Positions 956 to 42,973 of a stretch of 64,000 nt of DNA are shown here, piece after piece; within the stretch, counting starts at the first letter, position 1; each line of letters begins with the position of its first letter. The position numbers were made by a program, and so were the translations under genes. Source of the stretch: Thalassotalea sp. HSM 43 (GTDB taxonomy: Bacteria > Pseudomonadota > Gammaproteobacteria > Enterobacterales > Alteromonadaceae). Location of the stretch: NCBI RefSeq assembly GCF_004752005.1, contig NZ_CP038493.1, positions 2,132,302 through 2,196,301 of the forward strand. Reading direction: 5' to 3'. The notes under the pieces were generated by a model. That model made no database searches. It was not told where the DNA came from and saw only the letters and a list, made by a program, of their open reading frames with translations.

Positions 956-1702
956 TTAGAGCATAAATTGCAGGCTCAGTTCGACCACTTTTTGCTGTTG
1001 TTGCTGTCGAGTTAGCAAGCCTTGTTGTTCCGTCATCGCATCTTGATAATGAGCAAAATGCCAATGGTTGCCATTGCTGATTTCTTCATAAATGGCGCTG
1101 TTTGGCATCTTAGCTTTGTTCAGCGCAATCTTTTCGGGTGTGGTCTGCAAATCCTTTTCAGCACTGATACTAATAACCGGTAATTGCAAGCCGCTAATAT
1201 CACTTCCAGGATATGAAGCCCACAAGATCAAACCGGCAATACTTTGCTCCGCTGATTTGGCGTACTCTGCTGCAGCAACCCCACCTAATGAATGCCCGGC
1301 GACATACCAAGTTGAAATATCTGACCGCTGCTCGATAGCGATATTTGCTTTATCGATACCCAAAAACGCAGTGTTTAAAGGCATGGGCATTATTGCGACA
1401 TAAATTCCATGAGAAGCAAATTGTTGTGCAAGTGGTGCAAACGTTTCAGCTGTGGTTTTGCCGCCGGGGTAAACAATTAGACCTTTTGAGGCACCCTGTT
1501 TAGGGACAAACTCAATAAAGTCATGTTGATTAACTTCGACCTGATCGTTAGAAACCAGGGCGTCGGTTGTTTGTTGTTGTTGATAAGGAAATGGGATGCT
1601 CATCCAGGCGGCGGTTGAACCAACCACCACAACGAGCAACACCACCGTCCATTTAAGTATTTTTTTAATCACGGTTATACGGTTTACCGTTTCGTTCTTC
1701 AC
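956..1702 (-). CDS. Membrane-anchored alpha/beta hydrolase
   Basis: About 248 residues. A basic N-terminus is followed by one hydrophobic segment (about residues 14-34), so the protein is probably inner-membrane anchored with its catalytic domain outside the cytoplasm. The nucleophile elbow is GHSLGG (mid-protein), with a later Asp in SAEKDLQT and a His in GNHWHF that suit the catalytic triad. It is the last gene of the RCCR/SDR operon and its start overlaps the end of the upstream gene by 38 bases. The start is GTG at 1702, with no good ribosome site; a later GTG at 1672 is possible. The family cleaves esters or related bonds. In this context an ester of a chlorophyll-type molecule (phytyl or methyl ester) is an attractive but unproven substrate. 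Confidence 0.75.
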   Translation of the reverse strand: MKNETVNRITVIKKILKWTVVLLVVVVGSTAAWMSIPFPYQQQQTTDALVSNDQVEVNQHDFIEFVPKQGASKGLIVYPGGKTTAETFAPLAQQFASHGIYVAIMPMPLNTAFLGIDKANIAIEQRSDISTWYVAGHSLGGVAAAEYAKSAEQSIAGLILWASYPGSDISGLQLPVISISAEKDLQTTPEKIALNKAKMPNSAIYEEISNGNHWHFAHYQDAMTEQQGLLTRQQQQQKVVELSLQFML

Positions 1703-2507
1703 CGGCGAGAATGCGAATCAGTCGATCCGCTGCCTGTTTACCGACCAAACGCTCTGCGATCGGATTGGCAGGGTCAAGGTAGACAATTGAACGACGCTGA
1801 TCGTAATCTCGTTGGCGACGTTTTTGACATTGCATTTGATCATCATCTTGCTGCGCATTTTTAACTAATTCAAGCCAATGTTTCACTACCGCCCAAATTT
1901 TCTGTTTCGCGTTATTTTCAAAAAATGACAGAGGACCAACACCGGCAACGGCGCACGGACTTAGGCTGGCACGAATAAATGGCATCGCCGCATTGAATGG
2001 CTTAACACCATGTTCAAATAATTCATTTTGATGCGCCATAGCAACATCGTTAATGGCGTCATAATATTTTTCGACATGCTCAGGGTGAGTAACTAACTCA
2101 TAACGAGGCATCATATCGACGTAATAAAATGCCTCAGGTAAGGTACCAAATGCCATACCCAAATGTGGCACATCGGTATTACCTTTCATCCAAAAGGTTA
2201 AATGTATGTTGGTAAAGGTATTTTGTGGTTGACCGATGTCTGAATGAATCACCCAATCGACCGGGTTATCGTTGTCGCCGGTAAAATTGCGCATTCGACC
2301 TAGGTGGTTGCCTTGCAAATCATTAAAATTATGAATGTCCTGGCAGCCCAAGTCTTCGCTAAAATTGAGCTCAGTTGATATGTATTGCCAGATTTCATCT
2401 CTTAAGGCCAAGACCTGATTGTAGGTCTCTGAGGTGTCCATTTTGTGACCGCTATCTATATGGCGGGCAAACTCTTCTGTGACAAATGGTTTTTGTTGGG
2501 CAGACAT
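1665..2507 (-). CDS. Red chlorophyll catabolite reductase-like protein (copy A)
   Basis: 280 residues, soluble, no signal peptide. It is a diverged homologue of the copy at 3855-4676: both share DVPHL-x3-FGT, an aromatic run plus a charged P-R motif (MMPRYEL here), a YY pair, and a C-terminal R-x-R-R-x-DY...D-P segment followed by a helix. These follow the order seen in plant RCCR, a bilin-reductase-fold enzyme that reduces a methine double bond of the linear tetrapyrrole made from pheophorbide a, using ferredoxin. This copy is more diverged than copy B: the P-R-K-[DN]-L motif is MPRYEL. The next gene upstream (MFS) stops at 2507 in a TAATG overlap with this start, so the two are translationally coupled. 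The exact substrate is unknown. Confidence 0.7.
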   Translation of the reverse strand: MSAQQKPFVTEEFARHIDSGHKMDTSETYNQVLALRDEIWQYISTELNFSEDLGCQDIHNFNDLQGNHLGRMRNFTGDNDNPVDWVIHSDIGQPQNTFTNIHLTFWMKGNTDVPHLGMAFGTLPEAFYYVDMMPRYELVTHPEHVEKYYDAINDVAMAHQNELFEHGVKPFNAAMPFIRASLSPCAVAGVGPLSFFENNAKQKIWAVVKHWLELVKNAQQDDDQMQCQKRRQRDYDQRRSIVYLDPANPIAERLVGKQAADRLIRILAGEERNGKPYNRD

Positions 2508-3841
2508 TACGACTCTCCTTGGGAAATTAATTCTTGTTGACTGGCTAGCGAGGAGGATGTGTCATCATTCGACGCAGGGTTCACTTTCCAGCTCCATAAA
2601 AAGACAATGAAATTGAATAGGCCAAACACCACAAACGGTGTCGACGGACCATATTCAGCAAATAAGGCACCACCACCTGCGGTTGCGAATAAAATGCCAA
2701 CCGCACCGGCAACGCCGAAAAATCCTATAACCGCACCGCGGCGCTTCGCAGGTGCACTCTCGCCGACCAATGCTTGAGACGAGACAAAGGCACTGATCTC
2801 AGCAATACCCATAACCAGTAATAAACCGAGTACCCACGACTGGGTTGGATCGCTCACAAAAAACATCGCACAGTAAATAACCGCGGCTAAGCCAGACGCA
2901 CATGTTACTGCGCGAACACGCGATATTTTGTCACTTACCCAGCCCATTAATAACGAGCCGATAAGCGCGCCGAGCACCACCATCATAATTGCCGGTACCG
3001 CTAAGGTGTTCATTGCTTCACTTGCACTTAAGTTCATATTAGCGGTGCCAAATTGCACTAACCACAAGCCCATAAAGGCACCGGTTACCGCAAGATCGCC
3101 GCGAGAGATAAACGCAGCGCCATAACTTAATGCCACTTTTGGCGCTTTCGCTTCTGCTGCACCAAGTTTTAATTGTTTTGATAGGCTTTCATTACTGGCA
3201 CGAACGACGGTGCCGGCCACTTTCGATAATCCGAAGAACACGACGATGGCACCGATAACGCCCATACAACCGGCGATGGCGAAAGTCGCTTGTTGGGCAG
3301 CAGCTTCGCTGTAACCCGATTGCACAAAGGTATTGGGTAACGTCGCGAGAATGGGGGGTATAAAAGCGCCAAAGGTTGCTACCACACCTTGCAAGCCATT
3401 GGCCTTACCTCGACTTTCATTGTTGGCGTAGTCTGCAATAACGGTGACCATCATGCCCACCATGGCACCGCTACCAAAGGCAACGATAACGCGATAGACA
3501 ATCAATTCTGTAATCGAGGTGGAAGTGCCATATAGCGCAAAGCCAATGGCAGTGGTTAACAAACCAAAGGTATATACATAACGGCGACCAATGCGATCAG
3601 CAAAGACACCATAAATGGCCAGCATAATGATAAAAATCACTTCTTGCAGGGCACCAAGCATGCCGGTGATTTGCGCCTGTGATTTATAATCAATGCCAAT
3701 AACTTGCAACAACCCAGGTTGCAAGATTGACATCGCTCCAGCGTATCCGGAGGAAATCAGCACGGCTATAAAATAAGCAATTAGGTGATGACGTTTTACG
3801 CCATCGGCCAAATTTACCCCTAAAAAGCGAATGCCAGCCAT
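2507..3841 (-). CDS. MFS transporter
   Basis: 444 residues with about 12 hydrophobic helices and the MFS loop motif ADRIGRRYVY after helix 2 (about residues 80-90). The second half carries the matching GWVSDKISRVRA. Major facilitator proteins move small solutes across the inner membrane using ion gradients. It sits between the two RCCR-like genes, coupled to copy A by a TAATG overlap and 13 bases from copy B, so it most likely imports or exports the compound those enzymes handle. Subfamily cannot be fixed; it resembles metabolite:H+ symporters more than drug pumps. Confidence 0.85.
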   Translation of the reverse strand: MAGIRFLGVNLADGVKRHHLIAYFIAVLISSGYAGAMSILQPGLLQVIGIDYKSQAQITGMLGALQEVIFIIMLAIYGVFADRIGRRYVYTFGLLTTAIGFALYGTSTSITELIVYRVIVAFGSGAMVGMMVTVIADYANNESRGKANGLQGVVATFGAFIPPILATLPNTFVQSGYSEAAAQQATFAIAGCMGVIGAIVVFFGLSKVAGTVVRASNESLSKQLKLGAAEAKAPKVALSYGAAFISRGDLAVTGAFMGLWLVQFGTANMNLSASEAMNTLAVPAIMMVVLGALIGSLLMGWVSDKISRVRAVTCASGLAAVIYCAMFFVSDPTQSWVLGLLLVMGIAEISAFVSSQALVGESAPAKRRGAVIGFFGVAGAVGILFATAGGGALFAEYGPSTPFVVFGLFNFIVFLWSWKVNPASNDDTSSSLASQQELISQGES

Positions 3842-3854
3842 AAACTTACCTCAA

Positions 3855-4676
3855 TCAGTATTTCTTGTTGGCCAGCATTTGCTGACGGCCCATGCGCAGT
3901 TCAATCATGTTGTCTACTTCATCGGCACCAAACACATTCGCGGCCAACTTATTCATTGGATCGCGGGCGTAGCCCATTTCGCGAATAATATGGTCATTAC
4001 GTTGCAGCTCGGCACGCTCATTTTCAGGCACCGGTTCGGCGTTATCTAGCCAAGCCAGCCAGCGGTCAACCATTTCGTGCAGATACGCTTCTAAAATATC
4101 GATGTTGTCGTGATTTAACTCGCCCATTAAGCTTTGCGTTGCTGGATTAACTAGGGCACGCATGTATGGACCGTGACTTACCGACCAGTGAAAGTTCTCG
4201 TTAGAACGCAATTTCATATACCAGTCATTAACGTCACCACCATAGTATTTATCGAGATAATCGACGTTGGTTAGTAGGTTTTTACGTGGTGTGTAATCGC
4301 AGTAACAAAACAAGTGCGGCACCGTACCAAAGACAATCACTAAGTGCGGCACATCGGTTTCTTGACCGAGAAAAGCGGTGGTATTCATGTCGAGAATCGA
4401 CGCCTTGCGGTTACCGATCCATGAGTTCACCAACCATTCGACGCCCTCGCCAGACCATGCCTTGTAGGAACCTTCAAACTCGCCATTAGGTGAGGTGTAG
4501 TACTCGCGGTCAAAGGTACTTGGATGCTGTTCGATATCGGCAAAGCGCTTGGCTATTTTTGCTTTGAGTTCGCTCAAGATGCCCCAACAACGCTCCCAGT
4601 ATTTACTGACATCGACATTAGGATTTTCCGCTAAAAACTCATCTAAGGTTTTGGTTTCTTTATTAGCTGTTGTCAT
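3855..4676 (-). CDS. Red chlorophyll catabolite reductase-like protein (copy B)
   Basis: 273 residues, soluble. Read against plant RCCR it matches in order: a SWI motif about 90 residues in, a block ending AFLG, DVPHLVIVFGT, DYTPRKNL (plant DLPHRKDL), NVDYLDKYYGG (plant NPDYLKEYY), GPYMRALVNPATQSL (plant PSLFVRSAFSPTASML), and a C-terminal ELQRND...FG helix. This collinearity over most of the length makes membership of the RCC reductase family (relatives of ferredoxin-dependent bilin reductases) likely. The plant enzyme reduces the C20/C1 bond of red chlorophyll catabolite. The bacterial substrate could be a chlorophyll-derived or other linear tetrapyrrole. No ferredoxin gene is in the window. 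It lies 9 bases after the NYC1-like SDR. Confidence 0.78.
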   Translation of the reverse strand: MTTANKETKTLDEFLAENPNVDVSKYWERCWGILSELKAKIAKRFADIEQHPSTFDREYYTSPNGEFEGSYKAWSGEGVEWLVNSWIGNRKASILDMNTTAFLGQETDVPHLVIVFGTVPHLFCYCDYTPRKNLLTNVDYLDKYYGGDVNDWYMKLRSNENFHWSVSHGPYMRALVNPATQSLMGELNHDNIDILEAYLHEMVDRWLAWLDNAEPVPENERAELQRNDHIIREMGYARDPMNKLAANVFGADEVDNMIELRMGRQQMLANKKY

Positions 4677-4685
4677 TGATATGTC

Positions 4686-5483
4686 CTATAAACCAAACTC
4701 GGCGAATTTATCTTTTGGCTTTTTCAGCAAAGAGCCAAGTAAACGCAGAGTCATTTTTCGAGGGTTTAACCAGGCAATTTTTTTGCCGGTTTTATTAAAG
4801 TTAAGAATGTTAGTCACTAAAAACGGCGCCACCGTTTCCACTTTGTCACACAACACATTGGCGAACTTACGGCGCTTTTGGAAGTTATCCCAATCGGCTT
4901 TTGCCTCGCGAATAACCCCTTCGGTGATGATCATGCCTGGTCGTATTTTGCCAACCAAAATGTGATCATCTTTCAGCTCTTTGCTAAGCGCATTGGTAAA
5001 GTAGTCGAGACCTCGTTTGGTGGTGCCATATATGCCCATACCGGGGAAGTACTCGCCATCTGAACCACCGCCCAGCATATTGAAAATCTTGCCGCCACCT
5101 TGTTGCTTCATGCCGTTAGCAACCACTTTGCAGCAGTTGATGGTGCCTAACATATTGGTGGTCACCATGGTGTTAACTTCATCATCTGGTGTGTCGAGAA
5201 TAGACCAAACAGTGCGCGCTAAACCGGCATTGTTTATCCAAATATCAACCGCGCCAAAGCGGTCTGTTGCGGCTTGCCATAGCTGCTCTACCTGAGCTTT
5301 GTCTGTGGTGTCGCAGGCAACAGCGATGACTTTGTCACTACCCTTGCCGATATCGTTGGCGCATTGGTTTGCGTCATCTTGGTTGCGGCCAGAAACGACC
5401 ACTTGGTGGCCTTGATTGAAAAACTCTTGAGCTAAGCCTTTGCCAATACCTTTGGTTGAACCGGTAATTACTATTGTTGCCAT
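4686..5483 (-). CDS. SDR resembling chlorophyll b reductase (NYC1/NOL-like)
   Basis: About 265 residues. Cofactor motif VITGSTKGIG, an ACD turn, IWINNAG, an unusual IFNMLGGGSDG block in place of the plain Ser motif, YGTTKRGLDYF with the catalytic Tyr-x3-Lys, then RPGM and T. Plant chlorophyll b reductases NYC1/NOL share GSTKGLG, ACD, IWINNAG, IFNMDGAGS, YGSTK and a C-terminal [CD]..ETVA..LV plus GK..[NA][YW]L.P segment, all with counterparts here. The plant enzyme reduces the 7-formyl group of chlorophyll b as the first step of its breakdown. The start is ATG 5483, after AAGGA; a TTG six bases earlier is less likely. Its place beside two RCCR-like genes is the strongest support for tetrapyrrole chemistry. 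Other carbonyl substrates remain possible. Confidence 0.72.
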   Translation of the reverse strand: MATIVITGSTKGIGKGLAQEFFNQGHQVVVSGRNQDDANQCANDIGKGSDKVIAVACDTTDKAQVEQLWQAATDRFGAVDIWINNAGLARTVWSILDTPDDEVNTMVTTNMLGTINCCKVVANGMKQQGGGKIFNMLGGGSDGEYFPGMGIYGTTKRGLDYFTNALSKELKDDHILVGKIRPGMIITEGVIREAKADWDNFQKRRKFANVLCDKVETVAPFLVTNILNFNKTGKKIAWLNPRKMTLRLLGSLLKKPKDKFAEFGL

Positions 5484-5514
5484 AATCAATTCCTTAGCGA
5501 CTGCTCATTGGTTG

Positions 5515-6390
5515 TTAGGCGCTGGCTTGTTGCTGATTGTTTTCAACAACGTCTCGATTAGGGTCTTGATGCTTGACGGTATAACCCGTGGCGTAAATCT
5601 TATCGGCGCTGATCTTACGATTCGGCGCTTTGATCTGATTTAAAAACTCGAGGCGAGTCCAACCATTGGCGTCGCAAATCGCATCAAATACTTGTTGGTT
5701 GGTATAAGGAACATGGGCATTATCACAAACGTTGAAGATGCCGGTGAGCTGGTTGTCGATGACATGACATACAGCATCAACCACATCATTGAAATGAATC
5801 GCGTAAAGTGGGGCGTCGGCACCAAAAATGGCTTTGCCACCAAAATATTCAATCGCCATATTCACCCGCTGAGCAAAGTCTAAATCGCCAGGGGCGCCAT
5901 ACATATCAGGGAAGCGCAACACACAACCAGCATCCGCTGACAACACTTGTTGCTCGGCTTTTTGATAGTATTTAGAGCTGGGTTCTTGGTGATTTGACGT
6001 TGGCGTGGTTTCAGAAATTGGCGCTGAATCGTCGCCACCATCGCCATAGACAGAAAAACTCGACAGGAATATGACTCTAGGGCATGCCTGTGCAGCGCTT
6101 TGACAGCTTAATTCTAATGCTTGATGGTAATGAGTTTCACGTTCTTCTATGGTTCGCGTTTTGCGCACATTCGGAGCTACGGTAGCAACAATTAAATCAC
6201 AACCTTGCGCTGCAGCGATGACTTTGTCGGTCTCTTCGCCTTTTAATACATGAACTTCGTCGACCAAGGTTTCAAGCTCAGCGACTTTTTCTGGCGTGGT
6301 TGTGGTGCCAACAATGGTCACACCTTTTTGTTTTAACTTTTGTGCGACGGCTTTGCCAACATGACCAAGCCCTAAAATTAATACTTTCAT
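5515..6390 (-). CDS. NAD-dependent epimerase/dehydratase-like protein
   Basis: About 291 residues, extended-SDR/NmrA type. The N-terminal Rossmann motif is LILGLGHVGKAVA, with FLSSFSVYG in the middle and a C-terminal substrate region. The usual catalytic Tyr-x3-Lys is shifted: the local sequence is SKYYQKAEQ, with Lys at the usual Tyr position, so activity may be altered. It is the first gene of the RCCR/SDR operon. The start is ATG 6390; a TTG at 6399 is in frame. The downstream SDR starts 31 bases after its stop. Its role could be reduction of a vinyl or carbonyl group, but this is not shown. Confidence 0.7.
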   Translation of the reverse strand: MKVLILGLGHVGKAVAQKLKQKGVTIVGTTTTPEKVAELETLVDEVHVLKGEETDKVIAAAQGCDLIVATVAPNVRKTRTIEERETHYHQALELSCQSAAQACPRVIFLSSFSVYGDGGDDSAPISETTPTSNHQEPSSKYYQKAEQQVLSADAGCVLRFPDMYGAPGDLDFAQRVNMAIEYFGGKAIFGADAPLYAIHFNDVVDAVCHVIDNQLTGIFNVCDNAHVPYTNQQVFDAICDANGWTRLEFLNQIKAPNRKISADKIYATGYTVKHQDPNRDVVENNQQQASA

Positions 6391-6441
6391 TTTGCTCAAA
6401 CTTTGTTTTAAGATGACTTAATAAGACCTAATGTATTAACA

Positions 6442-6470: not shown

Positions 6471-6527
6471 ACATATGTCATTTAATTGACTGATTAAATC
6501 TCATAATTTAAATCTTTGGAGCAGAAT

Positions 6528-8279
6528 ATGCGCGTTGCGGCGTTGCAATTTGCCAGCACTTTGGACGTCGAAGACAATCTTCAAACATGCTTGCAAATGA
6601 TAGATAAGGCAGCTGTATGCCAACCTGATTTGATGGTGTTACCAGAATTTTGTAATGCCTTGTCTTGGTATCAAGACCAAGCGCATGCCTGGCAATTAGC
6701 GCTAGATATCGATGGTGAGTTCTTACAAAGCATTGCCAAAAAAGCAGCACAATATAACAGCTTTATTGTCATCAATGTCAGTTTACGGCGCCAGCATCCT
6801 GACATTACCGTAACCTCAGTCATGTTCGATAAAAATGGCCAAATACTGGCGACCGCTGATAAACAAACCCTTATGGGGCACGAAAACACCTTCTTTAAAC
6901 GAGCCGATCAGCTTTCGCCTATTGTGGTCAGTGAGTACGGTAATTTGGCGATGTTTCCTTGTCGAGATGGAGTAACCTGTGAAACCCCAAGAGGTTTAGC
7001 CATTCGCGGTGCACAGCTATTTTGTGATTCATTAAATTCCTTTGCTCTCGATGAGGCGGCGTTGCATGTCCCTGCACGAGCCGTTGAAAATGGCGTGTAT
7101 TTGGTCGCGGCAAACAAAACTGGTGCGTTAATTCCTGAGCAAATTCTTGAAGAAGTAGCACATGCGACAAACATTCCTAAACAATACTTGTATGGTGCAG
7201 GGGAAAGTCAGATAGTTGCACCTGATGGCCGTGTCCTCGCCAAAGCGCCATACAACGAGCCGGGTTTTATTTACGCTGACGTCGATTTGCATTCAGCCCG
7301 CAGTATGCAGCGCGCCGACAAAAGTCAGGTGTTTAATAATCGTCGACCTGAGTTGTATCAAGATATCGCCAAACCAGCCTTGGCCGAATATTGCCAAGGC
7401 GGAGATAAACAAGTCAGTGTTGGGTTACTGCAAGTTGACGACAAGACAATCGATCCTCTGCTCGGCATCAGTCAGCTAAAGCGTCGTATTCGTGACCTTA
7501 ATGAGCAGTTGATCGTATTGCCTGAGCTGTGCTTTTTAAAACAAGCCTACGCTGCGGGCGCAAATGACTTAGCAACCGCAGGCAAACTCAGTGATGTATT
7601 GGTTCGCGAAATTGCCGCAAGCTTAAAACCGGAGCAATATTTAGTGACATCCATTGTCCACTTCAAGCAACACAAAGCGGTGTTAATTGATGATTCGGGC
7701 ATACGTTTTAGCCAAAGACAATTACATCACTGCAATCGCTTGGCATGGAGTGAGTTGGCCGATGAGTTAAAGATATGTCGGCTGCCATGGGGAAATGTCG
7801 CGTTATTGACTGGAGATGATGTTTGTTACCCTGAATTAGCCAAAGTCGCGGCGCTAAAAGGCGCCCATGCTATTGTTTGCCCAATCGACATTCAACAAGC
7901 CTGGGAAGCGGATTACGGCTTGCTCAGTCGTTCCGCCGAAAATCGTATCAATGTGATAGCCTGTTCCCGTGATAACCAGCTGCAATCACAAACCTCAAGA
8001 CATACCGTTGCCGGACTTATTGCTGCCTTACCGTATGACTTTACCTTAATGAGTACGTGGCAGAAGCGTCAGTTTGATGGTCATATTAATTACCCTATTG
8101 TCACCCGTCAAAACAGCGAGTTGACCAGCGGTTTTATCTACCCTAATGCGGCCACCAACAAGCTAATGTCAGCGGATACCGACCTACTTAGTCAGCGACC
8201 TTGGCAACTCAGCGACACCTTAATGAAAAAGGCAGAATCGCTGCCCAAGGTCAAGGAGGCATCACTATGCGAGCAGTAA
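6528..8279 (+). CDS. Tandem nitrilase-superfamily hydrolase
   Basis: About 583 residues with two carbon-nitrogen hydrolase domains. Domain 1 (about 1-270) has the catalytic set: Glu in LPEFCN, Lys in ADKQTL and Cys in FPCRDG, placed ten residues before the R-x-LA-x2-GA helix. Domain 2 (about 290-560) repeats the fold (VLPELCF; DDVCYPELAKVAALKGA), but the position matching the nucleophile is Gly (LLTGDDV), so it is probably inactive. The family hydrolyses nitriles or amides in the cytoplasm. I start at ATG 6528, six bases after GGAG; a TTG 12 bases earlier is in frame but overlaps the ribosome site. It is the first gene of a plus-strand operon with the VOC and unknown genes. Confidence 0.85.
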   Translation: MRVAALQFASTLDVEDNLQTCLQMIDKAAVCQPDLMVLPEFCNALSWYQDQAHAWQLALDIDGEFLQSIAKKAAQYNSFIVINVSLRRQHPDITVTSVMFDKNGQILATADKQTLMGHENTFFKRADQLSPIVVSEYGNLAMFPCRDGVTCETPRGLAIRGAQLFCDSLNSFALDEAALHVPARAVENGVYLVAANKTGALIPEQILEEVAHATNIPKQYLYGAGESQIVAPDGRVLAKAPYNEPGFIYADVDLHSARSMQRADKSQVFNNRRPELYQDIAKPALAEYCQGGDKQVSVGLLQVDDKTIDPLLGISQLKRRIRDLNEQLIVLPELCFLKQAYAAGANDLATAGKLSDVLVREIAASLKPEQYLVTSIVHFKQHKAVLIDDSGIRFSQRQLHHCNRLAWSELADELKICRLPWGNVALLTGDDVCYPELAKVAALKGAHAIVCPIDIQQAWEADYGLLSRSAENRINVIACSRDNQLQSQTSRHTVAGLIAALPYDFTLMSTWQKRQFDGHINYPIVTRQNSELTSGFIYPNAATNKLMSADTDLLSQRPWQLSDTLMKKAESLPKVKEASLCEQ

Positions 8280-8764
8280 TCAAGTCGTCTGAAACTGGGC
8301 AATCCGTACTTGGTCAAGTGTTAGCGGAGCAATTGATTGGTCTCGCGCATGTCGGTTATATCGTCGAAGATTTGCAATCGAGCATTGCCACGTTTAAGCG
8401 AATATATGGCATAGATGATCAAGATATCACGGTTTTTCCCGACTTTTCGCAGCACGATGCTGCAACACGATTTGCCTTTTTGGACCTAAAAGGTACTCAA
8501 GTGGAATTAATTCAGGCCTTGGCTGAGCCGTTTACCAGTTTGTTGGCGAATGCCAACAGCGGTGGCGGCGGTATAAACCACTTAGCTTGGCAAGTGGCGG
8601 ATATTGATGCCTGTATGGCAATACTCGCAACGCAAGGCATCACGCCCGGTTATGTCACCCCTGATGGCATTGTCGATATGGGCGTCAAGAAAATGGTATA
8701 CCTCGATCCGCATAGCATCGACGGCCATTATCTTGAATTGATTGAAGTAACAGCAACGCAGTAA
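8267..8764 (+). CDS. VOC-family (glyoxalase/epimerase-like) protein
   Basis: 165 residues. The core IGLAHVGYIVEDLQSSIATF begins a vicinal-oxygen-chelate beta-alpha-beta-beta-beta module, and GGGINHLAWQVADIDACM begins the second; His in LAHVG and NHLAW and a late Glu (HYLELIEV) are the usual metal ligands. The arrangement is closest to methylmalonyl-CoA epimerase and related proteins. The start is ATG 8267 after AAGGAGG; it overlaps the nitrilase end by 13 bases, so the two are coupled. It could epimerise, isomerise or cleave a product of the pathway. Confidence 0.8.
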   Translation: MRAVIKSSETGQSVLGQVLAEQLIGLAHVGYIVEDLQSSIATFKRIYGIDDQDITVFPDFSQHDAATRFAFLDLKGTQVELIQALAEPFTSLLANANSGGGGINHLAWQVADIDACMAILATQGITPGYVTPDGIVDMGVKKMVYLDPHSIDGHYLELIEVTATQ

Positions 8765-8779
8765 CAAAGGAGAGTGTTG

Positions 8780-9481
8780 ATGGATATCAGCTTATTGGAT
8801 AAATATGTGCCGTTAACCCGGATTCAACAGACCCATTTTAAGGTAAAGGATCAGGGCTGTTACGACTATACACTCAATCATCAAAGTACGGATTTACAAG
8901 AGCCTTGGCAAATTCTTGAAAATGGCGACATGCAAATTATTCGTAGTGTGCGTTATTCCCGTCAATATAAGGTGTTACTGGCGGTGAGTTGCCATATCAC
9001 CAAGAGCACACAAACCATCGATCTAAGCTATCAAGAAGGTGATAACCCGGAAATTATCGCCCAATATAAAATCGATAAAGACGGCAATTGGCAAGTAAGC
9101 CAGAGTCATCCAGGAGATATATTTAAGCAGCAAGGGCACGACCCTGACTTGGTCATCTTTCCATTGTTGCGCATCTTCAGTGGCCAGATGCTAATCGATT
9201 GTAAGTTGCGAGGTCAGGCTAAGCGGCAAGTACTGATCCCAGATATTCGTCCCGAAAGTGGCTATAACGATAAACTAAAACCAAGTTTTGATATGCGCAC
9301 CAGTAAAGCCAAAGGGGTGAATGGGCGCGGTCGTAAATTCCAGTTTATTAGTGAGCATTACCAAGAAGACAGTGCGCAATTTTATCTTAATGAACATGGC
9401 CAATTGGATTTTTATCAATGGCAACAAGCACCACAAAAACTGTGGCAGGTGACTTTGTGCAAAGCTGCGGTATCCGCTTAA
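8780..9481 (+). CDS. Protein of unknown function, DUF3108-like barrel
   Basis: 233 residues, no signal peptide or membrane segment. I do not recognise a named family. Beta-rich alternation and the middle stretch (FPLLRIFSGQML followed by an IPDIRPES block) look like the protein at 54155-54892, which has HPIVGDALLMKIYDL followed by FPDLFLTSPD at the same place. The two may be distant relatives with a beta-barrel, lipocalin-like shape able to bind a hydrophobic ligand. The start is ATG 8780, seven bases after AGGAG (8768-8772). Third gene of the nitrilase operon, 15 bases after the VOC gene. Confidence 0.6.
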   Translation: MDISLLDKYVPLTRIQQTHFKVKDQGCYDYTLNHQSTDLQEPWQILENGDMQIIRSVRYSRQYKVLLAVSCHITKSTQTIDLSYQEGDNPEIIAQYKIDKDGNWQVSQSHPGDIFKQQGHDPDLVIFPLLRIFSGQMLIDCKLRGQAKRQVLIPDIRPESGYNDKLKPSFDMRTSKAKGVNGRGRKFQFISEHYQEDSAQFYLNEHGQLDFYQWQQAPQKLWQVTLCKAAVSA

Positions 9482-11016: not shown

Positions 11017-11784
11017 TTACTTCATTGAGAATTCCATATCGAACTGGTATTTATCCGGTCGATATATGGCATATAAATGATCGAACAACTTGCCATCGGC
11101 GTCATACATGGAGCGATCTAACAACAAAAGTGGTCGCCCTGTTGGGATTTCCAAGACTAATGCGGTGTCCATATTCGATAACGTAGCGGTAACCGATTGT
11201 TGCACCTTATCAAGTTGGATACCGGCTTTGCGGAATATTTCCATGCGCGATGAGTTGTACAATGACTGTTCGCTATATAGTTCACCGATGTCACGGGTCC
11301 AACTGACGTAATAACCAAATGGTTGGCCATCACTCATACGTACCCGCACAGATTGAATCAGTTCTTCATCAGGACCAATACCAAATCGCTCTTGGATATC
11401 CAACGGTGGTACCGCCTTTTGGAAGGTGATTGAACGAACTTCGGTTTCTTGGCCAAGGGTTTTCAAGTTTTCTAATAAACCAGACAGTGGCGCTTTAAGC
11501 TGCTCTGCACGGTGTTTGTAGATAACATGCGATCCTTTACCGCGACGACGTGAGATATATCCTTCCTCGGCGAGCTCATCCATGGCGCGTTTTGCGGTGA
11601 TTCGTGAAACTGAAAATGCTTCTGATAGCTGATGTTCGGTCGGCATTTTTTCGCCAAATGGGATTTCACCCAAATGGATTTTTTCTTTCAAGAACAGATA
11701 TACCTGATGATACAGCGGGGTAGGTACATCCGACTTCAAGGCCTGACCTAAGCGAGGATCACTTAGTAACTCTTCAAATGTCAT
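11017..11784 (-). CDS. GntR/HutC-family transcriptional regulator
   Basis: 255 residues. The winged helix-turn-helix spans about 25-90 (PLYHQVYLFLKEKI; GEKMPTEHQLSEAFSVSRIT; GYISRRRGKGSHV), and the UTRA ligand-binding domain about 105-250. HutC-type regulators bind a small effector in UTRA and release or change their hold on DNA. It is divergent from the membrane-protein/GST pair at 12045, and the 260-base gap between holds an FNR-type site. TGATATA-type palindromic stretches at about 11787 and 11890 could be its own operators, but this is weak. Confidence 0.85.
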   Translation of the reverse strand: MTFEELLSDPRLGQALKSDVPTPLYHQVYLFLKEKIHLGEIPFGEKMPTEHQLSEAFSVSRITAKRAMDELAEEGYISRRRGKGSHVIYKHRAEQLKAPLSGLLENLKTLGQETEVRSITFQKAVPPLDIQERFGIGPDEELIQSVRVRMSDGQPFGYYVSWTRDIGELYSEQSLYNSSRMEIFRKAGIQLDKVQQSVTATLSNMDTALVLEIPTGRPLLLLDRSMYDADGKLFDHLYAIYRPDKYQFDMEFSMK

Positions 11785-12044: not shown

Positions 12045-12719
12045 ATGACTGAATATCTGGTTTTTAAGCTTTTACATCTACTTTTGTTTGTCTATTGGCT
12101 CGGTGGCGATCTCGGCACCTTTTATGCATCGCGTTTTGTCGCTAAACAAGGCCTGACGTCACAGCAGCGCAGTACCGCGTTGACTATTATGATGGGCGTT
12201 GATCAAGGACCGCGTATCTGCATGGCGCTTATCCTCGGTCCGGGCATGCAAATGGCTTATTCTTCTGGGTTAATTCAAATGCCGTTATGGGCTCTGGTAT
12301 TGGTATGGCTGATATGCGCGCTATGGTTGGCCATGGTGTTAGCGATTCACTTTGGTCACGGCAAAGCGTTTGTGCAGCCGTTAACTAAGTTTGATTTTAA
12401 TTTCCGCATAGCGGTGATTTTAGTTTGTCTGGCGGTGTGTGCTGAACATTGGCTAGCTCAATCGCCACAATATATTCAGGCGGGATATATTGCTTGGAAA
12501 TTACTGTTCTTTGCCGCGTTAGTCGCCTGTGGTTTGGGTATTCGAGTGATGCTAAAACCTTTTATTCCGGCTTTTATGGAAATGATGAAAGACGGCCCAA
12601 ATCCTGATGTTGATGGCCGGTTACAGAAATCTTTGGCTAAAGTTCGTCCCTTTGTCTACCTTATTTGGGTAGGCCTATTAGTGAACGCCGCTCTCGGCAT
12701 GCATTTAATCACGCCTTAA
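12045..12719 (+). CDS. Small membrane protein, CopD/DUF2269-like (copy 1)
   Basis: 224 residues with about six hydrophobic helices. The first helix contains LLHLLLFVYWLGGDLGTF; the same L-H-x5-YWLGG motif starts the protein at 51979-52671, so they are paralogues. A conserved His in a membrane helix next to YWLGG suggests heme or metal binding, as in CopD-like and cytochrome-b561-like proteins. The function is not known. It leads a two-gene unit with the GST 11 bases downstream, and sits behind a FNR-type site. Confidence 0.75.
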   Translation: MTEYLVFKLLHLLLFVYWLGGDLGTFYASRFVAKQGLTSQQRSTALTIMMGVDQGPRICMALILGPGMQMAYSSGLIQMPLWALVLVWLICALWLAMVLAIHFGHGKAFVQPLTKFDFNFRIAVILVCLAVCAEHWLAQSPQYIQAGYIAWKLLFFAALVACGLGIRVMLKPFIPAFMEMMKDGPNPDVDGRLQKSLAKVRPFVYLIWVGLLVNAALGMHLITP

Positions 12720-12730
12720 AAGGATATCTT

Positions 12731-13378
12731 ATGCGATTATTAAGCTCTGACTTTTCTCCCTATTCTACTCGTGTGCGCATTCAAATTCGCAAAAAATCGT
12801 TGCCTATCGACATTTGCGCACCGGAGCCAGCACTGCGAACTCCTGAGTTTCTCAACAAATATCCATTGGGTAAAATTCCGGTCTTAGAGCTTGATGATGG
12901 CCGTCATCTGGCGGAGTCTTGGACCATAATGCAGTACCTTGAACAGGTGTATCCCGAGGTGTCACTTAGCAGTGATGATGCATTTAGCGTTGCGCAAATG
13001 AGTCAAATTGGCCGCTATGCAGACTTACACCTTGGTCCATCGCTGTTTCCCATGTTTCGCGCGGTGTTGTTATCGCTTGAGCTAAATATTGACGACGAGG
13101 TCGCGGCAATAAAAGCGGAGCTTAATAAAGGTGACCGACTGCTAGCCGGGCAAGATCTAAATCGGTCAGTGAATATTGCTGATATCGCCTTGGCAACGAC
13201 AATGTTTTTTACTCTAGAGACGCCCAAATTATTTAATATTAAAAATTTATTGGCTGATTACGATAATCTCAATGCTTGGTGGCAATGGGTGCAAAAAGAC
13301 GCCGATGTGGCTTTAGGTATTGACGAGATGAATCGCGCATTTAAAGGCTTTGTTGCCGCCAGTAAACAGGCCTCATAA
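12731..13378 (+). CDS. Glutathione S-transferase family protein
   Basis: 215 residues. A thioredoxin-like N-terminal domain (about 1-78) carries SDFSPYSTRVR, with the active Ser, then NPLGKIPVLELDDG-type (here KYPLGKIPVLELDDG) with the cis-Pro, and the glutathione-binding ES in LAESWTI. The helical C-terminal domain follows with VNIADIAL. These enzymes add glutathione to electrophiles, open rings or isomerise substrates such as maleyl compounds. The start is ATG 12731 after AAAGGA. It follows the membrane-protein gene and ends at a strong terminator. Confidence 0.88.
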   Translation: MRLLSSDFSPYSTRVRIQIRKKSLPIDICAPEPALRTPEFLNKYPLGKIPVLELDDGRHLAESWTIMQYLEQVYPEVSLSSDDAFSVAQMSQIGRYADLHLGPSLFPMFRAVLLSLELNIDDEVAAIKAELNKGDRLLAGQDLNRSVNIADIALATTMFFTLETPKLFNIKNLLADYDNLNAWWQWVQKDADVALGIDEMNRAFKGFVAASKQAS

Positions 13379-30493: not shown

Positions 30494-31834
30494 ATGAAAC
30501 AATCTTTAACAGAGCAGCTCATAATTGATATTTGGCAAATGTCTGTCACCGATGCCGATAGGCAGCGTGCTGCCAAGCATGTGGTTGACTATTTGGCCTG
30601 CGCCGCGGTTGGCGCCAAAAGCGCACAAGGTTTGGTGTATGCCAAGCTTGTTGAGCAGGCAGGTCCTGGCTCTGTTAGCGCCGTGTTTAATCGCTGTTGC
30701 GATTTACAAACCGCGTTGGCATTTAATGCTGCCATCGGTAATGTTATGGAAATGGATGATATTCATCGCAGTTCGATTTTACACCCAGGTCCAGTCGTGA
30801 TTCCGGCGGCATTGGCTCTTGCGGAACAACAGCACGTGAGCATGCAATGCTTCTTAGATGCGGTGATCAAGGGCTACGAAGTGACCATACGTATGGGCCA
30901 GTCTATTGGTCGCAGTCATTATAAGTATTTTCATAACACCTCAACCTGTGCCGCATTAGGTGCGGCAACCGCGGCAGCGGCCATTCTTGGTTTGGATGCT
31001 GAGCAAACGGTGAGTGCCATAGGTAATGCCGGTTCTCGTACCGGTGGCTTGTGGCAAATGCGTCATGAAAATGTGATGAGCAAGCAATGGCATAACAGCG
31101 AAGCGGCGAAAAGTGGTGTTAATGCGGCGATAATGGCCAGTCATGGGTTGACCGGGCCGAAAACTATTTTAGAAGGTGAGCTGGGTATCTTTAATGCGTT
31201 AAGCGACGACGCAAACCCACAAGCATTTGTCGCCAAGCACGATAACTGGCTTATCTATGATGTTAGCTTTAAACCGTGGCCGGCATGTCGCCATGCCCAT
31301 CCGGCGATTGATGCCTTTAACCACGCACTCGACAACGCACAGCAGCCTATAGACGTCGAAGATATCGACTCGGTGCGCGTTGAAACCTATCAGGATGCGA
31401 AACTGTTTTGTGATCGCTTGCACATAGACAGTGATGTCTCGGCAAAATTTTCCATTCAGCATGCGCTGGCGGCGATACTTGTTTTTGGTGAACCTAAGCT
31501 AGAGCATTACAGTGCCAAGGTTTATCAACGTGCCGACATTGGCACATTGCGTGAGAAAATCAGCGTCGATGTGTCGCCGACTATTGAAGCGGATTATCCA
31601 CAACATTATGGTGCTCGCTGTCAGATCACACTGAAATCCGGTATCCAGCTCAGTGGTTATCGTCAAGATACGTTAGGGGATCCGGAAACGCCGTTAAGCG
31701 AACAACAATTTTGTGATAAAGCGCAGATGCTGTTTGCTGCCGCAGGCATAGACCAGCAACGTATTGAGCATATCGTCGCCATGCAGTGGCAACAACACAA
31801 TGACATTACCGCCTTGAGCAAATTACTGGATTAA
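30494..31834 (+). CDS. MmgE/PrpD family protein (copy 1)
   Basis: 446 residues, full length for the family. The N-terminal helical domain contains VVDYLACAAVGA and MEMDDIHRSSILHPG; the second domain SFKPWPACRHAHPAID and later AADYP-like EADYPQHYGAR. The family includes 2-methylcitrate dehydratase, cis-aconitate decarboxylase and iminodisuccinate epimerase, all acting on tri- or dicarboxylic acids. It opens the GntR-controlled operon; copy 2 begins three bases after its stop, so the two may form one complex. The reaction here is unknown. Confidence 0.82.
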   Translation: MKQSLTEQLIIDIWQMSVTDADRQRAAKHVVDYLACAAVGAKSAQGLVYAKLVEQAGPGSVSAVFNRCCDLQTALAFNAAIGNVMEMDDIHRSSILHPGPVVIPAALALAEQQHVSMQCFLDAVIKGYEVTIRMGQSIGRSHYKYFHNTSTCAALGAATAAAAILGLDAEQTVSAIGNAGSRTGGLWQMRHENVMSKQWHNSEAAKSGVNAAIMASHGLTGPKTILEGELGIFNALSDDANPQAFVAKHDNWLIYDVSFKPWPACRHAHPAIDAFNHALDNAQQPIDVEDIDSVRVETYQDAKLFCDRLHIDSDVSAKFSIQHALAAILVFGEPKLEHYSAKVYQRADIGTLREKISVDVSPTIEADYPQHYGARCQITLKSGIQLSGYRQDTLGDPETPLSEQQFCDKAQMLFAAAGIDQQRIEHIVAMQWQQHNDITALSKLLD

Positions 31835-31837
31835 ACA

Positions 31838-33244
31838 ATGACACAATCACCAACCCCATCACCAACCCCATCGGCAACACAACCGCCAGCAATCGATGCG
31901 TTGATTGAATATATTGAACGCAGTGAATACAGCTCATTGCCACAATCTGCCATCGATGCGGCGAAAATATTTATTTTTGACTCCATTGGTGTCGGTATCA
32001 GTGGCTCACGAGTTGAAAGGGTTAATGAGGTGAAAGCCGCGGCTAATTTGTGGGGGCAGGGTAAACAAGCACAAGTGTGGGTGACGGGGGAATGGCTGCC
32101 GGCAAGTTCGGCGGCGTTATTAAATGGTTTTCAAATTCATAATCAAGAATGGGATTGTGTTCACGAAGGCGCCGTTGTTCACCCAATGGCAACCATTTTG
32201 TCTGCCTTGACCGCTTATGGTCAACGCGAAGGCTTGTCTGGCAAAGACCTTATTCATGGAGTCATCGTCGCGGTTGATGTCGCAACATTAATCGGCGGGG
32301 CGGTAACCTCGGGATTGAAATTTTTCCGGCCATCGGTATGTGGCTGTTTAGGCTCAACCGCCGGTATTTGTACCATGCTAGGCATCAAAGGCATTGAACT
32401 TAAAAATGCATTGGGGATTGCCTACAGCCAAATCAGTGGCACCATGCAATCTCACGTTGAAGGCTCGCCGATGTTGGCGATGCAAATTGGATTCAATTCA
32501 CAAAACGCGGTCATGGCGGTGGATATGGCGCGCGCTGGCTTTTCAGGTCCACATGATATTCTTGAAGGCCCTTTTGGTTATTATCGTTTATTTGAAGATG
32601 ACTATGATTTACAAGGCTTTTATCAAAAATTAGCTCACCAATATCAAATCGAGGAGGTCAGTCATAAACCGTTTCCGACCGGCCGTGCCGGTCACGGTAC
32701 CGTCGATGCACTACAAAGTTTACAGGCAGAACATGGCTTTAGCGCGGCGGATATTGAATCGGTAGTGGTGCACGCCACGCCATTGATTAACCGACTTGTT
32801 GGCCGCCCAGTAAAACCCGATATGGATGTAAGTTACGCAAAATTGTGTAATGGCTATATTGGCGCAACCGCATTATTAACCGGTAACGTTACCGTCGAAG
32901 ATTTTGACGATAAGTGTTTGCTCGATAAGCAACGTTTGTCGTTGGCGAAAAAATTCACCACCCGAGTCAATGATTGCACTGATCCTAATGCCCTAGCGCC
33001 GATATCGGTTGAGGTGACATTGACCGATGGGCGTCAGTTGGCAATCGATATGCCAGCGATACTGGGTAATCCGGCTCGGCCGATGAGCAAGGCCATGCAG
33101 ATTGACAAATTTCGCGCCGCGTGTGCCAGCGCCAGTGTCGCTTTTAGCGTCGAGCATACCGATAAATTGATAAATAGCATAGACGCTTTGGAGCAAATCC
33201 AGAATATTAACACCCTAATAAAACAAATGGTTTCTCCTATTTAA
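31838..33244 (+). CDS. MmgE/PrpD family protein (copy 2)
   Basis: 468 residues. The extreme N-terminus is a short Ser-Pro-Thr repeat (SPTPSPTPSATQPP) with a matching DNA repeat, then the family fold: IFDSIGVGISG, NHxEWD-like NQEWDCVHEGAVVHP and SHKPFPTGRAGHGTVDAL. It differs strongly from copy 1 (little shared beyond family motifs). A translational pair, with a gap of three bases. Likely dehydration, hydration or epimerisation of a carboxylic acid in the same pathway as the amidase and CoA transferase downstream. Confidence 0.82.
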   Translation: MTQSPTPSPTPSATQPPAIDALIEYIERSEYSSLPQSAIDAAKIFIFDSIGVGISGSRVERVNEVKAAANLWGQGKQAQVWVTGEWLPASSAALLNGFQIHNQEWDCVHEGAVVHPMATILSALTAYGQREGLSGKDLIHGVIVAVDVATLIGGAVTSGLKFFRPSVCGCLGSTAGICTMLGIKGIELKNALGIAYSQISGTMQSHVEGSPMLAMQIGFNSQNAVMAVDMARAGFSGPHDILEGPFGYYRLFEDDYDLQGFYQKLAHQYQIEEVSHKPFPTGRAGHGTVDALQSLQAEHGFSAADIESVVVHATPLINRLVGRPVKPDMDVSYAKLCNGYIGATALLTGNVTVEDFDDKCLLDKQRLSLAKKFTTRVNDCTDPNALAPISVEVTLTDGRQLAIDMPAILGNPARPMSKAMQIDKFRAACASASVAFSVEHTDKLINSIDALEQIQNINTLIKQMVSPI

Positions 33245-36133: not shown

Positions 36134-37297
36134 ATGGCAGGTCCATTAACCGGAATCAAAGTACTGGATTTAAGTCGCATTCTTGCCGGCCCTTGGGCGA
36201 CGCAAGTGTTGGCCGACTATGGTGCTGAAGTCTACAAAATTGAACGCCCAGTAAGTGGTGACGACACTCGTCATTGGGGGCCTCCTTATGTACAAAATAG
36301 TGATGGCACTGATACTCAGGAATCCGCTTATTATGTTGCTGCCAATCGTGGTAAGCAGTCTTTTGCCATTGATATCACCAGCGAACAAGGGCAAGCGCAA
36401 ATCAAACAGATGGTGCTAGATGCGGATATCGTTGTTGAGAATTACAAGGTCGGTGGCCTGAAGAAATACGGCCTTGATTATGATGCATTAGCACAACTTA
36501 ATCCGGGTATTATCTATTGTTCGATTACCGGTTTTGGTCAAACCGGACCTTATGCCAACAAGGCGGGTTATGACGCCATGATTCAAGCCATGGGTGGCTT
36601 AATGAGTATTACCGGCGAGCAAGATCAACTGCCAGGTGGTGGGCCACAAAAGGTAGGCGTAGCGGTCGCTGATTTGATGACCGGAATGTATGCGGTGTCT
36701 GGTATTTTAGCGGCTCTGCATCATAAAAACCAAACCGGTGAGGGTCAGCATATTGATTTAGCCTTACTGGATACTCAGGTTGCCTGGCTGGCAAATCAAG
36801 CCAGTAACTACCTTATTGGTGGTGATGTACCGAAGCGATTGGGTACCGCACATCCGAATATCGTGCCTTATCAGGCTATGAAAGTAAAAAATGGTCACAT
36901 TATGCTGGCGGTCGGCAATGATAGGCAGTTTAAAAAATGTTGCCAGATACTTGGCGCGCCAGAACTGGCAGAGGACAGTGATTATGCGAGCAACGATCAG
37001 CGCGTAGCGAACCGAGATGTATTAATCAATAAATTAGAGGCGTTATTCTTATGCCATGATATTGATTATTGGCTTGAGCATTTGTCAGCGGCACATGTAC
37101 CTTGTGGACCAATTAATACCCTAGATAGAGTATTTGAAAATCCACAAATTCAACATCGACAAATGTTGTTTGAATTGGAGCACCCAACCGCAGGTAAAGT
37201 ACCTCAAGTCGCCAATCCAGTGAAGTTCTCAGCCACACCGATTGAATACCACAGTTTGGCGCCAACCTTAGGTAATGCCTCGACAAATAAAGCCTAA
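36134..37297 (+). CDS. CaiB/BaiF class III CoA transferase
   Basis: 387 residues. Motifs: VLDLSRILAGPWATQ, VENYKVGGLKKYGLDY, ITGFGQTGPYANKAGYD and the catalytic Asp in GVAVADLMTGMYAVSG. These enzymes move CoA from an acyl-CoA to a free dicarboxylic or other acid without ATP. Preceded by GGAG, last gene of the GntR operon, 11 bases before the stop of the broken monooxygenase frame on the other strand. Similar enzymes act on citramalate, mesaconate, itaconate and succinate. Confidence 0.9.
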   Translation: MAGPLTGIKVLDLSRILAGPWATQVLADYGAEVYKIERPVSGDDTRHWGPPYVQNSDGTDTQESAYYVAANRGKQSFAIDITSEQGQAQIKQMVLDADIVVENYKVGGLKKYGLDYDALAQLNPGIIYCSITGFGQTGPYANKAGYDAMIQAMGGLMSITGEQDQLPGGGPQKVGVAVADLMTGMYAVSGILAALHHKNQTGEGQHIDLALLDTQVAWLANQASNYLIGGDVPKRLGTAHPNIVPYQAMKVKNGHIMLAVGNDRQFKKCCQILGAPELAEDSDYASNDQRVANRDVLINKLEALFLCHDIDYWLEHLSAAHVPCGPINTLDRVFENPQIQHRQMLFELEHPTAGKVPQVANPVKFSATPIEYHSLAPTLGNASTNKA

Positions 37298-42439: not shown

Positions 42440-42973
42440 CTAGCTCTCCGATTCTTGTGTTTCACTATCGCTGTTTTTCTGTTGCGCAAATTTGTTCTTC
42501 AGATAGGGCATTAAGCCACCAGCATTGACGATCACCATCAACTCTGCCGGGATAGGCTCACATTGAAAAGATTCACCGGTCGTCAGGTTTTTCACTAAGC
42601 CCTGCACTGGATCAACACTGACTTGCTGGCCTTTTTCGATATTCGCCAGTTCCGGGCAAAACAGTACAGGCAACCCTAGGTTCAGGGCATTGCGGTAAAA
42701 AATACGGGCAAATGATTTGGCAACCACCGCCGATACACCTAATTCAACTAAGGCTTGTGCGGCTTGCTCTCGAGAGGAACCAATACCAAATGCGTCACCG
42801 CCGATGACCACGTCGCCAGCTTTTACCTGACTGGCAAAGTCGGCGTCAATGGCTTCGAGGCAATGCGCGGCCAGTTCACTGAGTGGCGCTTTCATATAGG
42901 CACCTGGAGCTAACAAATCGGTATCAATATTGTCGCCGTAAACCCAAGCGTGTCCTGTTAATTCATTATTCAT
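42440..42973 (-). CDS. Aconitase-type hydratase small subunit (LeuD2/DmdB-like)
   Basis: 177 residues, the swivelling domain. Motifs: VYGDNIDTDLLAPGAYM, GDVVIGGDAFGIGSSREQAA and AKSFARIFYRNALNLGLPVL. It is shorter than leucine-pathway LeuD of E. coli and fits the LeuD2/HacB/DmdB group. The substrate loop after DTD reads YMKA, unlike YLRT of isopropylmalate isomerase as I remember it, which argues for another substrate. The start is ATG 42973 after AGGA. It follows the large subunit by 22 bases. Confidence 0.85.
   Translation of the reverse strand: MNNELTGHAWVYGDNIDTDLLAPGAYMKAPLSELAAHCLEAIDADFASQVKAGDVVIGGDAFGIGSSREQAAQALVELGVSAVVAKSFARIFYRNALNLGLPVLFCPELANIEKGQQVSVDPVQGLVKNLTTGESFQCEPIPAELMVIVNAGGLMPYLKNKFAQQKNSDSETQESES

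Follow-up and report, generated by a model that had tools for sequence, protein, structure and literature searches.

In plants, NOL/NYC1 reduce chlorophyll b, a Rieske oxygenase opens pheophorbide, and the red chlorophyll catabolite (RCC) is reduced by RCC reductase (RCCR). We analyzed a 64,000-nucleotide stretch of the Thalassotalea sp. HSM 43 genome (contig NZ_CP038493.1, positions 2,132,302 to 2,196,301; hereafter the window) in which an operon at 956-6399 encodes two RCCR-like proteins and a NOL/NYC1-like short-chain dehydrogenase/reductase (SDR). A sequence-only reading of the window had pointed to this operon; the observation is confirmed as real and proved larger than first described, extending over a genomic island. 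As in the plant PaO/phyllobilin pathway (NYC1/NOL, PPH, PaO, RCCR), RCCR, NOL-like SDRs, a Rieske oxygenase and alpha/beta hydrolases are found, here encoded together. In contrast to that pathway, the island is bacterial, its Rieske protein is of the VanA_C type, three RCCR classes are present instead of one, and apparent mineralization genes follow. On balance, the operon probably belongs to an accessory catabolic island that degrades an imported tetrapyrrole aerobically, with a chlorophyll derivative such as pheophorbide or a phyllobilin as the likeliest substrate; chlorophyll breakdown is unproved but fits best.

Other described systems come close. Nicotinate/dimethylmaleate catabolism uses maleamate amidase, maleate isomerase, dimethylmaleate hydratase and dimethylmalate lyase; the island holds the same enzyme superfamilies side by side, assigned at superfamily level only, but no nicotinate enzymes were recognized in it by eye. 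No open-access paper was found on the hydratase and the lyase together. Ferredoxin-dependent bilin reductases and bacterial pre-PcyA (PMC10151467) belong to the same superfamily as RCCR and have the aspartate of the DP motif in common with it, whereas the island RCCRs fall below the cut-off of PF05996. According to that study, pre-PcyA also occur in heterotrophs, their clusters contain globins and often heme oxygenase, with either V4R and Fe-S proteins or a B12-binding protein depending on lineage, and RCCRs and related sequences form an outgroup (PMC10151467); the island RCCRs are instead partnered by a Rieske oxygenase and catabolic genes. Among the open-access matches listed, judged mostly by title or the start of the abstract, with subscription papers and preprints outside the search, there was no bacterial gene cluster for the breakdown of chlorophyll or its catabolites.

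The six open reading frames (ORFs) of the operon lie head to tail on the minus strand, two adjoining pairs overlapping and the remaining three gaps spanning 9 to 25 bases, which bears out the single operon first described. Its two RCCR-like proteins, A and B (26% identical), both exceed the PF06405 gathering score of 24.9 bits when searched with the hidden Markov model (HMM), and they are the only PF06405 matches in the host genome (one contig, 4.01 Mb); none of 14 control genomes matched. Against PF05996 (cut-off 31 bits), A scored 25.8 bits and B gave no match at 0.001. The best Protein Data Bank (PDB) match of B by phmmer was Arabidopsis RCCR (AtRCCR, 1.7e-9), and a 36-sequence profile retrieved AtRCCR (1e-23) ahead of HY2 (2.4e-11) and PEBB (1.6e-10), with PebA also matched. 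In a Foldseek search with the AlphaFold2 model of B (predicted local distance difference test 92.5, predicted template modelling (TM) score 0.90), ranks 1-9 were all RCCR chains, with bilin reductases next; AtRCCR (PDB 2ZXK, 3AGA-3AGC) was best (1.9e-13, TM 0.71), yet only 21-23% identical over the structural match. Pfam places A and B in the RCC reductase family, and the model of B supports the RCCR/bilin-reductase fold. The description of the host as non-photosynthetic holds as far as the absence of Photo_RC (PF00124) from its genome shows; one of the 14 controls, Synechococcus elongatus, was positive.

A third paralogue upstream of the window extends the set to three classes. HMMs run on stop-to-stop segments of the loci of relatives (L003-L086), the window and the flank from the same genome (L089) gave 122 RCCR-fold matches (38 class a, 55 class b, 29 class c). 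Residues were counted in 119 of them, leaving out a partial class b sequence (L059) and two class c fragments (L079), in an alignment that includes AtRCCR, HY2 and PEBB. We take Glu154 (E154) and D291 of AtRCCR as the reference positions, with numbering and role assumed and the number E154 unconfirmed in open-access papers. The Glu154 column holds Asp in PEBB, Asn in HY2 and Asp in all 27 class c sequences. All 119 sequences retain the DP-motif Asp, which aligns with the KDP Asp of bilin reductases and with AtRCCR D290, one column off D291. Class c therefore carries Asp at both acid positions (27/27), classes a and b only at the second. In a quick tree of 41 rows, class c fell on one branch (SH-aLRT support 97), as did class b (100); class a did not (three changes). 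AtRCCR, whose branch is very long, grouped with classes a and b (83% support), but its place is unsure and we do not claim that plant RCCR lies inside the bacterial tree.

The SDR of the operon had been likened to NYC1/NOL on motifs (GSTKGIG, ACD, IWINNAG, IFNMLGGGSDG, YGTTK, ETVA), all of which are present in its translation. An unverified Arabidopsis NOL sequence, not taken from a database record, served as query, and 11 SDRs matched in the host genome. The best two were those of the island: a second copy 28 kb before the window (40% identity, 1.2e-45) and the operon copy (36%, 2.7e-35), followed by the next SDR at 1.2e-16. Among 55 SDR segments in the fetched loci, the 33 island-type ones, a set defined without use of NOL, were the top 33 (90-158 bits), ahead of the best PDB SDR (82.5 bits) and of the 22 other locus SDRs, the first of which reached 58 bits. 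The ranking strongly suggests that the island SDRs are NOL-like; with an unverified query, the assignment is not final.

The island starts ~39 kb before the window and reaches window position 13.4 kb or beyond (Table 1). Some gene names in the flank come from profiles or HMMs and the rest from reading the sequence by eye. The sequence-only reading could not include the Rieske gene, found ~30 kb before the window at host contig position 2101520 (G000:C1), and did not connect the operon with the genes of dicarboxylate type. It is partly supported: its proposal that the operon reduces a linear tetrapyrrole gains strength from three further island genes, those for the Rieske oxygenase, the third RCCR and the second NOL-like SDR, and from the presence of the gene set in several phyla. 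A and B lack the acid at the RCCR Glu154/bilin-reductase Asp position, which only class c has.

Of 59 genomes, counting that of the host, five carry RCCR-fold genes, each with three matches. Four of the five come from the genus, which contributed 15 genomes including the host's, and the fifth belongs elsewhere in the family. In 20 of the 59 genomes, the maleate-isomerase-like pair and the Rieske orthologue (81-100% identity) occur in exactly these five and in none of the other 15; the remaining Rieske matches, in four genomes (two of them carriers), are partial and at 28-33%. In a comparison with three congeners, where a match required 45% identity or more across half of a protein, the segment between -38.9 and +13.4 kb was largely common to them; within it, 9486-10805 was matched in none. 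Beyond it, with the caveat that the fetched stretches of two congeners (G1016 and G1009) may end before further parts, the LeuCD-like pair at 42440-44267 was matched in all three stretches, the parts at 30.5-37.3 kb (MmgE/PrpD, CoA-transferase) and 54.2-57.8 kb in two, and 13.5-28.7 kb in none.

The family is rare among sampled genomes: PF06405 incidence, own genome included, was 1/295 in the order, 4/369 in the class and 1/398 in the phylum. A genome collection was scanned with a six-sequence alignment and the best 80 of 126 relatives were kept (L007-L086); by record title these 80 comprise 45 Pseudomonadota, 30 Actinomycetota, 3 Chloroflexota, 1 Myxococcota and 1 without phylum. Named relatives include Alteromonadales, Nocardioides, Nocardia and Actinoplanes, and L015 and L053 are titled alphaproteobacterial. 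Cultured strains with RCCR a, b and Rieske include Thalassotalea mangrovi, Paraglaciecola hydrolytica and Rheinheimera sp. 1928-s. Carriage by phages or plasmids was considered and set aside: no relative was found in viral contigs or, by tblastn, in plasmids (phage records lay outside the search), and A and B matched no PHROG family.

The 80 loci divide into 34 with class a or c (26 with both) and 46 with class b only; contig ends truncate many of them (634 kb and 774 kb for the two groups), and related species do not count as independent. On these terms, a conserved cluster accompanies classes a and c: Rieske (30/34 versus 0/46), LIPO10 (26/34 versus 0/46), the ABH7 hydrolase (24/34 versus 0/46), the NOL-like SDR (24/34 versus 1/46), CN-hydrolase (22/34 versus 1/46), the maleate-isomerase-like protein (17/34 versus 2/46), the lyase (12/34 versus 2/46) and CitE (14/34 versus 5/46). 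No difference was seen for MmgE (8/34 versus 6/46), CoA-transferase (8/34 versus 8/46) or the epimerase-like protein (7/34 versus 8/46). The 30 Rieske loci belong to 20 Actinomycetota, 6 Pseudomonadota, 2 Chloroflexota, 1 Myxococcota and 1 record without phylum title; the a/c loci lacking Rieske are L009, L060, L071 and L076, and the genome of L009 very likely does carry the gene, ~48 kb away. Judged from sequence, the cluster looks like a bacterial counterpart of plant chlorophyll dismantling, and it recurs here and there in at least three further phyla. No Pfam family matches LIPO10, and its model is a double calycin nearest to DUF3598 and BFA1, a predicted fold compatible with a tetrapyrrole carrier without being evidence for one.

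Several observations concern the composition of these loci. LIPO10, LIPO30, LIPO31 and LIPO46, whose tested representatives had no Pfam match, accompany RCCR a/c (L081:12676-13608, L056, L060, L065-L086). Class b occurs without Rieske or a/c in many gammaproteobacterial and a few other metagenome-assembled genomes (MAGs; L015-L039, L041-L045, L048-L050, L053, L059, L062, also L005 and L006). In 15 of the 46 b-only loci a [2Fe-2S] ferredoxin is encoded downstream of class b, at a distance of 2-5.7 kb (the L031 copy matching PF00111); it does not adjoin class b, a motif scan of the island found none, and we do not claim a ferredoxin partner. An OmpR-type response regulator was read by eye in 16 loci. 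L076 and L082, titled Bifidobacterium breve MAGs, hold RCCR a/c, and the label is probably that of a misnamed environmental bin. In Nocardioides and Mumia (L040, L046, L051, L052, L054, L057), class b stands with the epimerase-like protein, CoA-transferase and MmgE, and with MaoC in five of the six, a context that suggests a link between class b and the C-C lyase branch described below.

We infer the order of steps, the substrates and the route from imides to dicarboxylates from the observed families, fold, co-conservation and co-presence. Uptake would proceed through the TonB receptor and major facilitator superfamily (MFS) carriers, ester removal through the alpha/beta hydrolases, and formyl or carbonyl reduction through the NOL-like SDRs. 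The Rieske oxygenase, fed by the rubredoxin-reductase protein, would effect oxidative opening or bridge cleavage, and RCCR-fold proteins would reduce the linear product. Class c would be the best candidate reductase because it keeps both conserved acids and classes a and b only one; the latter may work on fragments formed later or serve in substrate binding. Cleavage would yield pyrrole-derived imides, to be opened by the PuuE-like hydrolases, with isochorismatase and CN-hydrolases hydrolyzing the half-amides. Dialkylmaleates would then pass through maleate-isomerase-like, LeuCD-like and PEP-mutase-family lyase proteins, with CoA-transferase, MaoC and CitE, to pyruvate and acyl-CoA. Methyl-ethyl-maleimide, methyl-vinyl-maleimide and hematinic acid are named as chlorophyll or heme breakdown products in PMC7318184, a study that itself detected hematinic acid but no maleimides in its leaves. 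More tentatively, and short of calling it probable, we propose a widespread bacterial pathway from chlorophyll catabolites to central metabolites (Rieske opening, reduction by two or three specialized RCCR paralogues, NOL-type formyl reduction, imide/maleate catabolism) that spread horizontally, as an island, through marine and soil bacteria, and with which plant RCCR and NOL may share ancestry.

A number of results weigh against a chlorophyll pathway of this design. PF08417 (PaO) had no match in the host genome at E<=10, and we reject the PaO family for the island Rieske protein, which is of VanA_C type (PF00355 and PF19112). Unlike in the plant pathway, no Staygreen protein (PF12638) was found in any of 19 genomes, where the controls were equally unmatched and absence is thus unproved. 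A cysteine-motif scan for a plant-type [2Fe-2S] ferredoxin in frames of 50-160 codons from -39 to +64 kb found none, its sole match being a shadow frame at 24115. The Glu154 column lacks an acid in class a (Ala in 36 of 38, Val and Thr once each) and class b (Ile or Val in 54/54), and the host's class c protein stays under both cut-offs (PF06405 14.4 bits, PF05996 18.5 bits). As for the later steps, the upstream LeuCD pair is lacking in one congener's fetched stretch, its LeuC (-6582) scores as an ordinary LeuC, and the genes at 57.8-63.7 kb were matched in only one of three congener stretches. No imidase, MaoC, CitE or lyase candidate exceeded an NCBIfam cut-off, no family of NCBIfam was matched at 1e-15 by the maleate-isomerase-like protein at -840, and several catabolic assignments reach superfamily level only.

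The fold and the end products would suit other pigments as well. The island might degrade heme-derived bilins (biliverdin, bilirubin) or phycobilins, with RCCR-fold proteins as bilin reductases and the Rieske protein cleaving linear-pigment bridges. The profile and fold matches extend to HY2, PEBB and PebA, class c holds the bilin-reductase Asp, the host's class c protein scores slightly better with PF05996 than with PF06405, though below both cut-offs, and the same maleimides arise from bilins. We nevertheless consider this unlikely: the best sequence matches of A and B and the best structure match of B are RCCR, no heme oxygenase was seen among the island ORFs read by eye (no profile search was made), and we know of no role of NOL-like SDRs in bilin breakdown. 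A general aromatic or heterocycle catabolic island, its RCCR fold having been taken over for a substrate other than a tetrapyrrole (another pyrrole, an indole, a sterol or an aromatic), would account for the VanA_C-type Rieske protein, whose nearest NCBIfam family is methylsterol monooxygenase (below cut-off). In the L075 relative the nearest PDB entries are SxtDIOX, SxtT, NdmA and DdmC, with KshA further down, and the one acid missing from classes a and b points the same way. The co-occurrence over several phyla of RCCR and NOL-like proteins (the latter by the unverified query), both of them families known from chlorophyll breakdown, is not expected from random recruitment, and we hold this reading to be quite improbable.

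That the genes build a modified linear tetrapyrrole or pigment instead of degrading one seems very improbable. A HapK/REDY-like protein (PF11639) near an imidase-like gene and several calycin-like families (LIPO10 by model, others by reading) would fit biosynthesis. Against it stand the degradative character of the genes for imidase, amidase, isomerase, hydratase, lyase and CoA-transferase types and the conservation of three of the families (CN-hydrolase, isomerase and lyase) alongside RCCR a/c.

Table 1. Features of the island and window. Coordinates are those of the window; negative values lie before its start. Homologues in L012 and L013 refer to loci of relatives.
Feature	Position	Strand	Basis or remark
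Isochorismatase-like	-37556		
Two PuuE-like hydrolases	-36876 and -35905		
Flavin reductase	-34317		
LIPO10	-33803		
Rubredoxin-reductase	-32702		
Rieske oxygenase	-30781		PF00355 + PF19112
LIPO46	-28754		
NOL-like SDR, second copy	-28027		
MFS	-27108		
CN-hydrolase	-24810		
RCCR class c	-23287		
Acyl-CoA-dehydrogenase/monooxygenase-like	-22328		
Two aldehyde dehydrogenases	between -22328 and -18130 in gene list		
Alpha/beta hydrolase	-18130		
Isochorismatase	-17335		
FAD monooxygenase	-16713		
TonB receptor	-15100		
Maleate-isomerase-like pair	-10837 and -840		-10837: EutA match 64 bits, far under cut-off; relative L012:13858 above PF17645 (Amdase) cut-off
CoA-transferase	-8777		
HMG-CoA-lyase-like	-7521		
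LeuCD	-6582/-5122		
Lyase	-1707		
Alpha/beta hydrolase ABH956, hydrophobic N-terminal stretch	956..1702	-	PF12695 6e-39
RCCR-like A, class a	1665..2507	-	PF06405 52.2 bits, 6.3e-14
MFS transporter	2507..3841	-	PF07690 7e-41
RCCR-like B, class b	3855..4676	-	PF06405 50.9 bits, 1.6e-13
NOL/NYC1-like SDR	4686..5489	-	PF00106
NAD-dependent epimerase-like protein	5515..6399	-	PF01370 1e-14
Carbon-nitrogen hydrolase, candidate half-amide hydrolase	6516..8279	+	PF00795 1e-43
VOC (glyoxalase-fold) protein	8201..8764	+	PF13669; true start probably 3' of 8201
Conserved protein	8774..9481	+	no Pfam match; 47-62% identity in three congener stretches
GntR/UTRA regulator, candidate island regulator	11017..11784	-	PF07702 + PF00392; 85-86% in three congener stretches
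Membrane protein and glutathione-S-transferase-like protein	12045..13378	+	no Pfam match (membrane protein), eye reading (transferase-like); 60-76% identity in three congener stretches; right edge of main common block
Two MmgE/PrpD-family proteins	30494..33244	+	first PF03972/PF19305; both match MmgE HMM
CoA-transferase, CaiB type	36134..37297	+	eye reading; clusters with two other window CoA-transferases
PEP-mutase/methylisocitrate-lyase family, candidate dialkylmalate lyase	41541..42437	-	PF13714 2e-46; TIGR02317 301 bits, under cut-off 354
LeuD-like small subunit, candidate dialkylmaleate hydratase	42440..43033	-	PF00694
LeuC/homoaconitase-like large subunit, candidate dialkylmaleate hydratase	42996..44267	-	PF00330 1.5e-95; NF001614, TIGR01343, TIGR02086 each above cut-off
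PuuE/allantoinase-like polysaccharide-deacetylase-fold hydrolase, candidate cyclic imidase	57751..58668	+	PF01522; TIGR03212 254 bits, under cut-off 425; homologues at 68-79% near RCCR b in L012, L013
CitE-like C-C lyase, nearest RipC (itaconate degradation)	58532..59524	+	NF038242 236 bits, under cut-off 375
MaoC hydratase, nearest RipB/Ich	59568..60086	+	NF038241 236 bits, under cut-off 340; homologues at 60-65% near RCCR b in Nocardioides
Acyl-CoA dehydrogenase-like	60120..61295	+	eye reading; 82-83% homologues in L012, L013
Two CoA-transferases, CaiB type	61352..63728	+	eye reading; first 85% in L013, 62% in L012; second 68% in L012

Among the remaining operon genes, ABH956 has its nearest PDB structure in 9eh6 (a 'fold-5 domain-containing' hydrolase, 2.9e-32), and its family lies within 10 kb of RCCR in 7 of the 80 loci. 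Matches of the alpha/beta hydrolases to PET-hydrolase and cutinase types were weak, and a chlorophyllase-like identity is not claimed. The epimerase-like ORF has a TTG start at its 6399 end and an in-frame ATG at 6390, and its family is close to RCCR in 15/80 loci; the VOC family occurs in 8/80.

Other parts of the window are less clearly connected with the island. The segment at 13561-28724, with genes (partly by eye reading) for a TonB receptor, a TPR-sulfotransferase, MFS, CN-hydrolase, aminotransferase and aldehyde dehydrogenase, unmatched in the three congener stretches, is possibly a separate insertion. An OsmC-YcaO-YcaO_C fusion at 37732-39921, likewise unmatched, is probably unrelated to the island. 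At 53005-56455 lie a DUF1838 protein, another protein, a methyltransferase and a small protein, of which all except the DUF1838 protein were matched in two congener stretches. The HapK/REDY-like protein, at 56627-56935 beside an SDR and the imidase-like gene, is conserved in L012 and L013; the family name of PF11639 refers to prodigiosin clusters.

Chlorophyll is made and degraded at a scale of 10^12 kg per year (PMC7318184). With named genes, cultured carriers, and carrier and non-carrier genomes in one genus, the island makes the question of its function directly testable, and it bears on the origin of plant RCCR and NOL. If confirmed, the proposed function would show how microbes recycle one of Earth's most abundant pigments.

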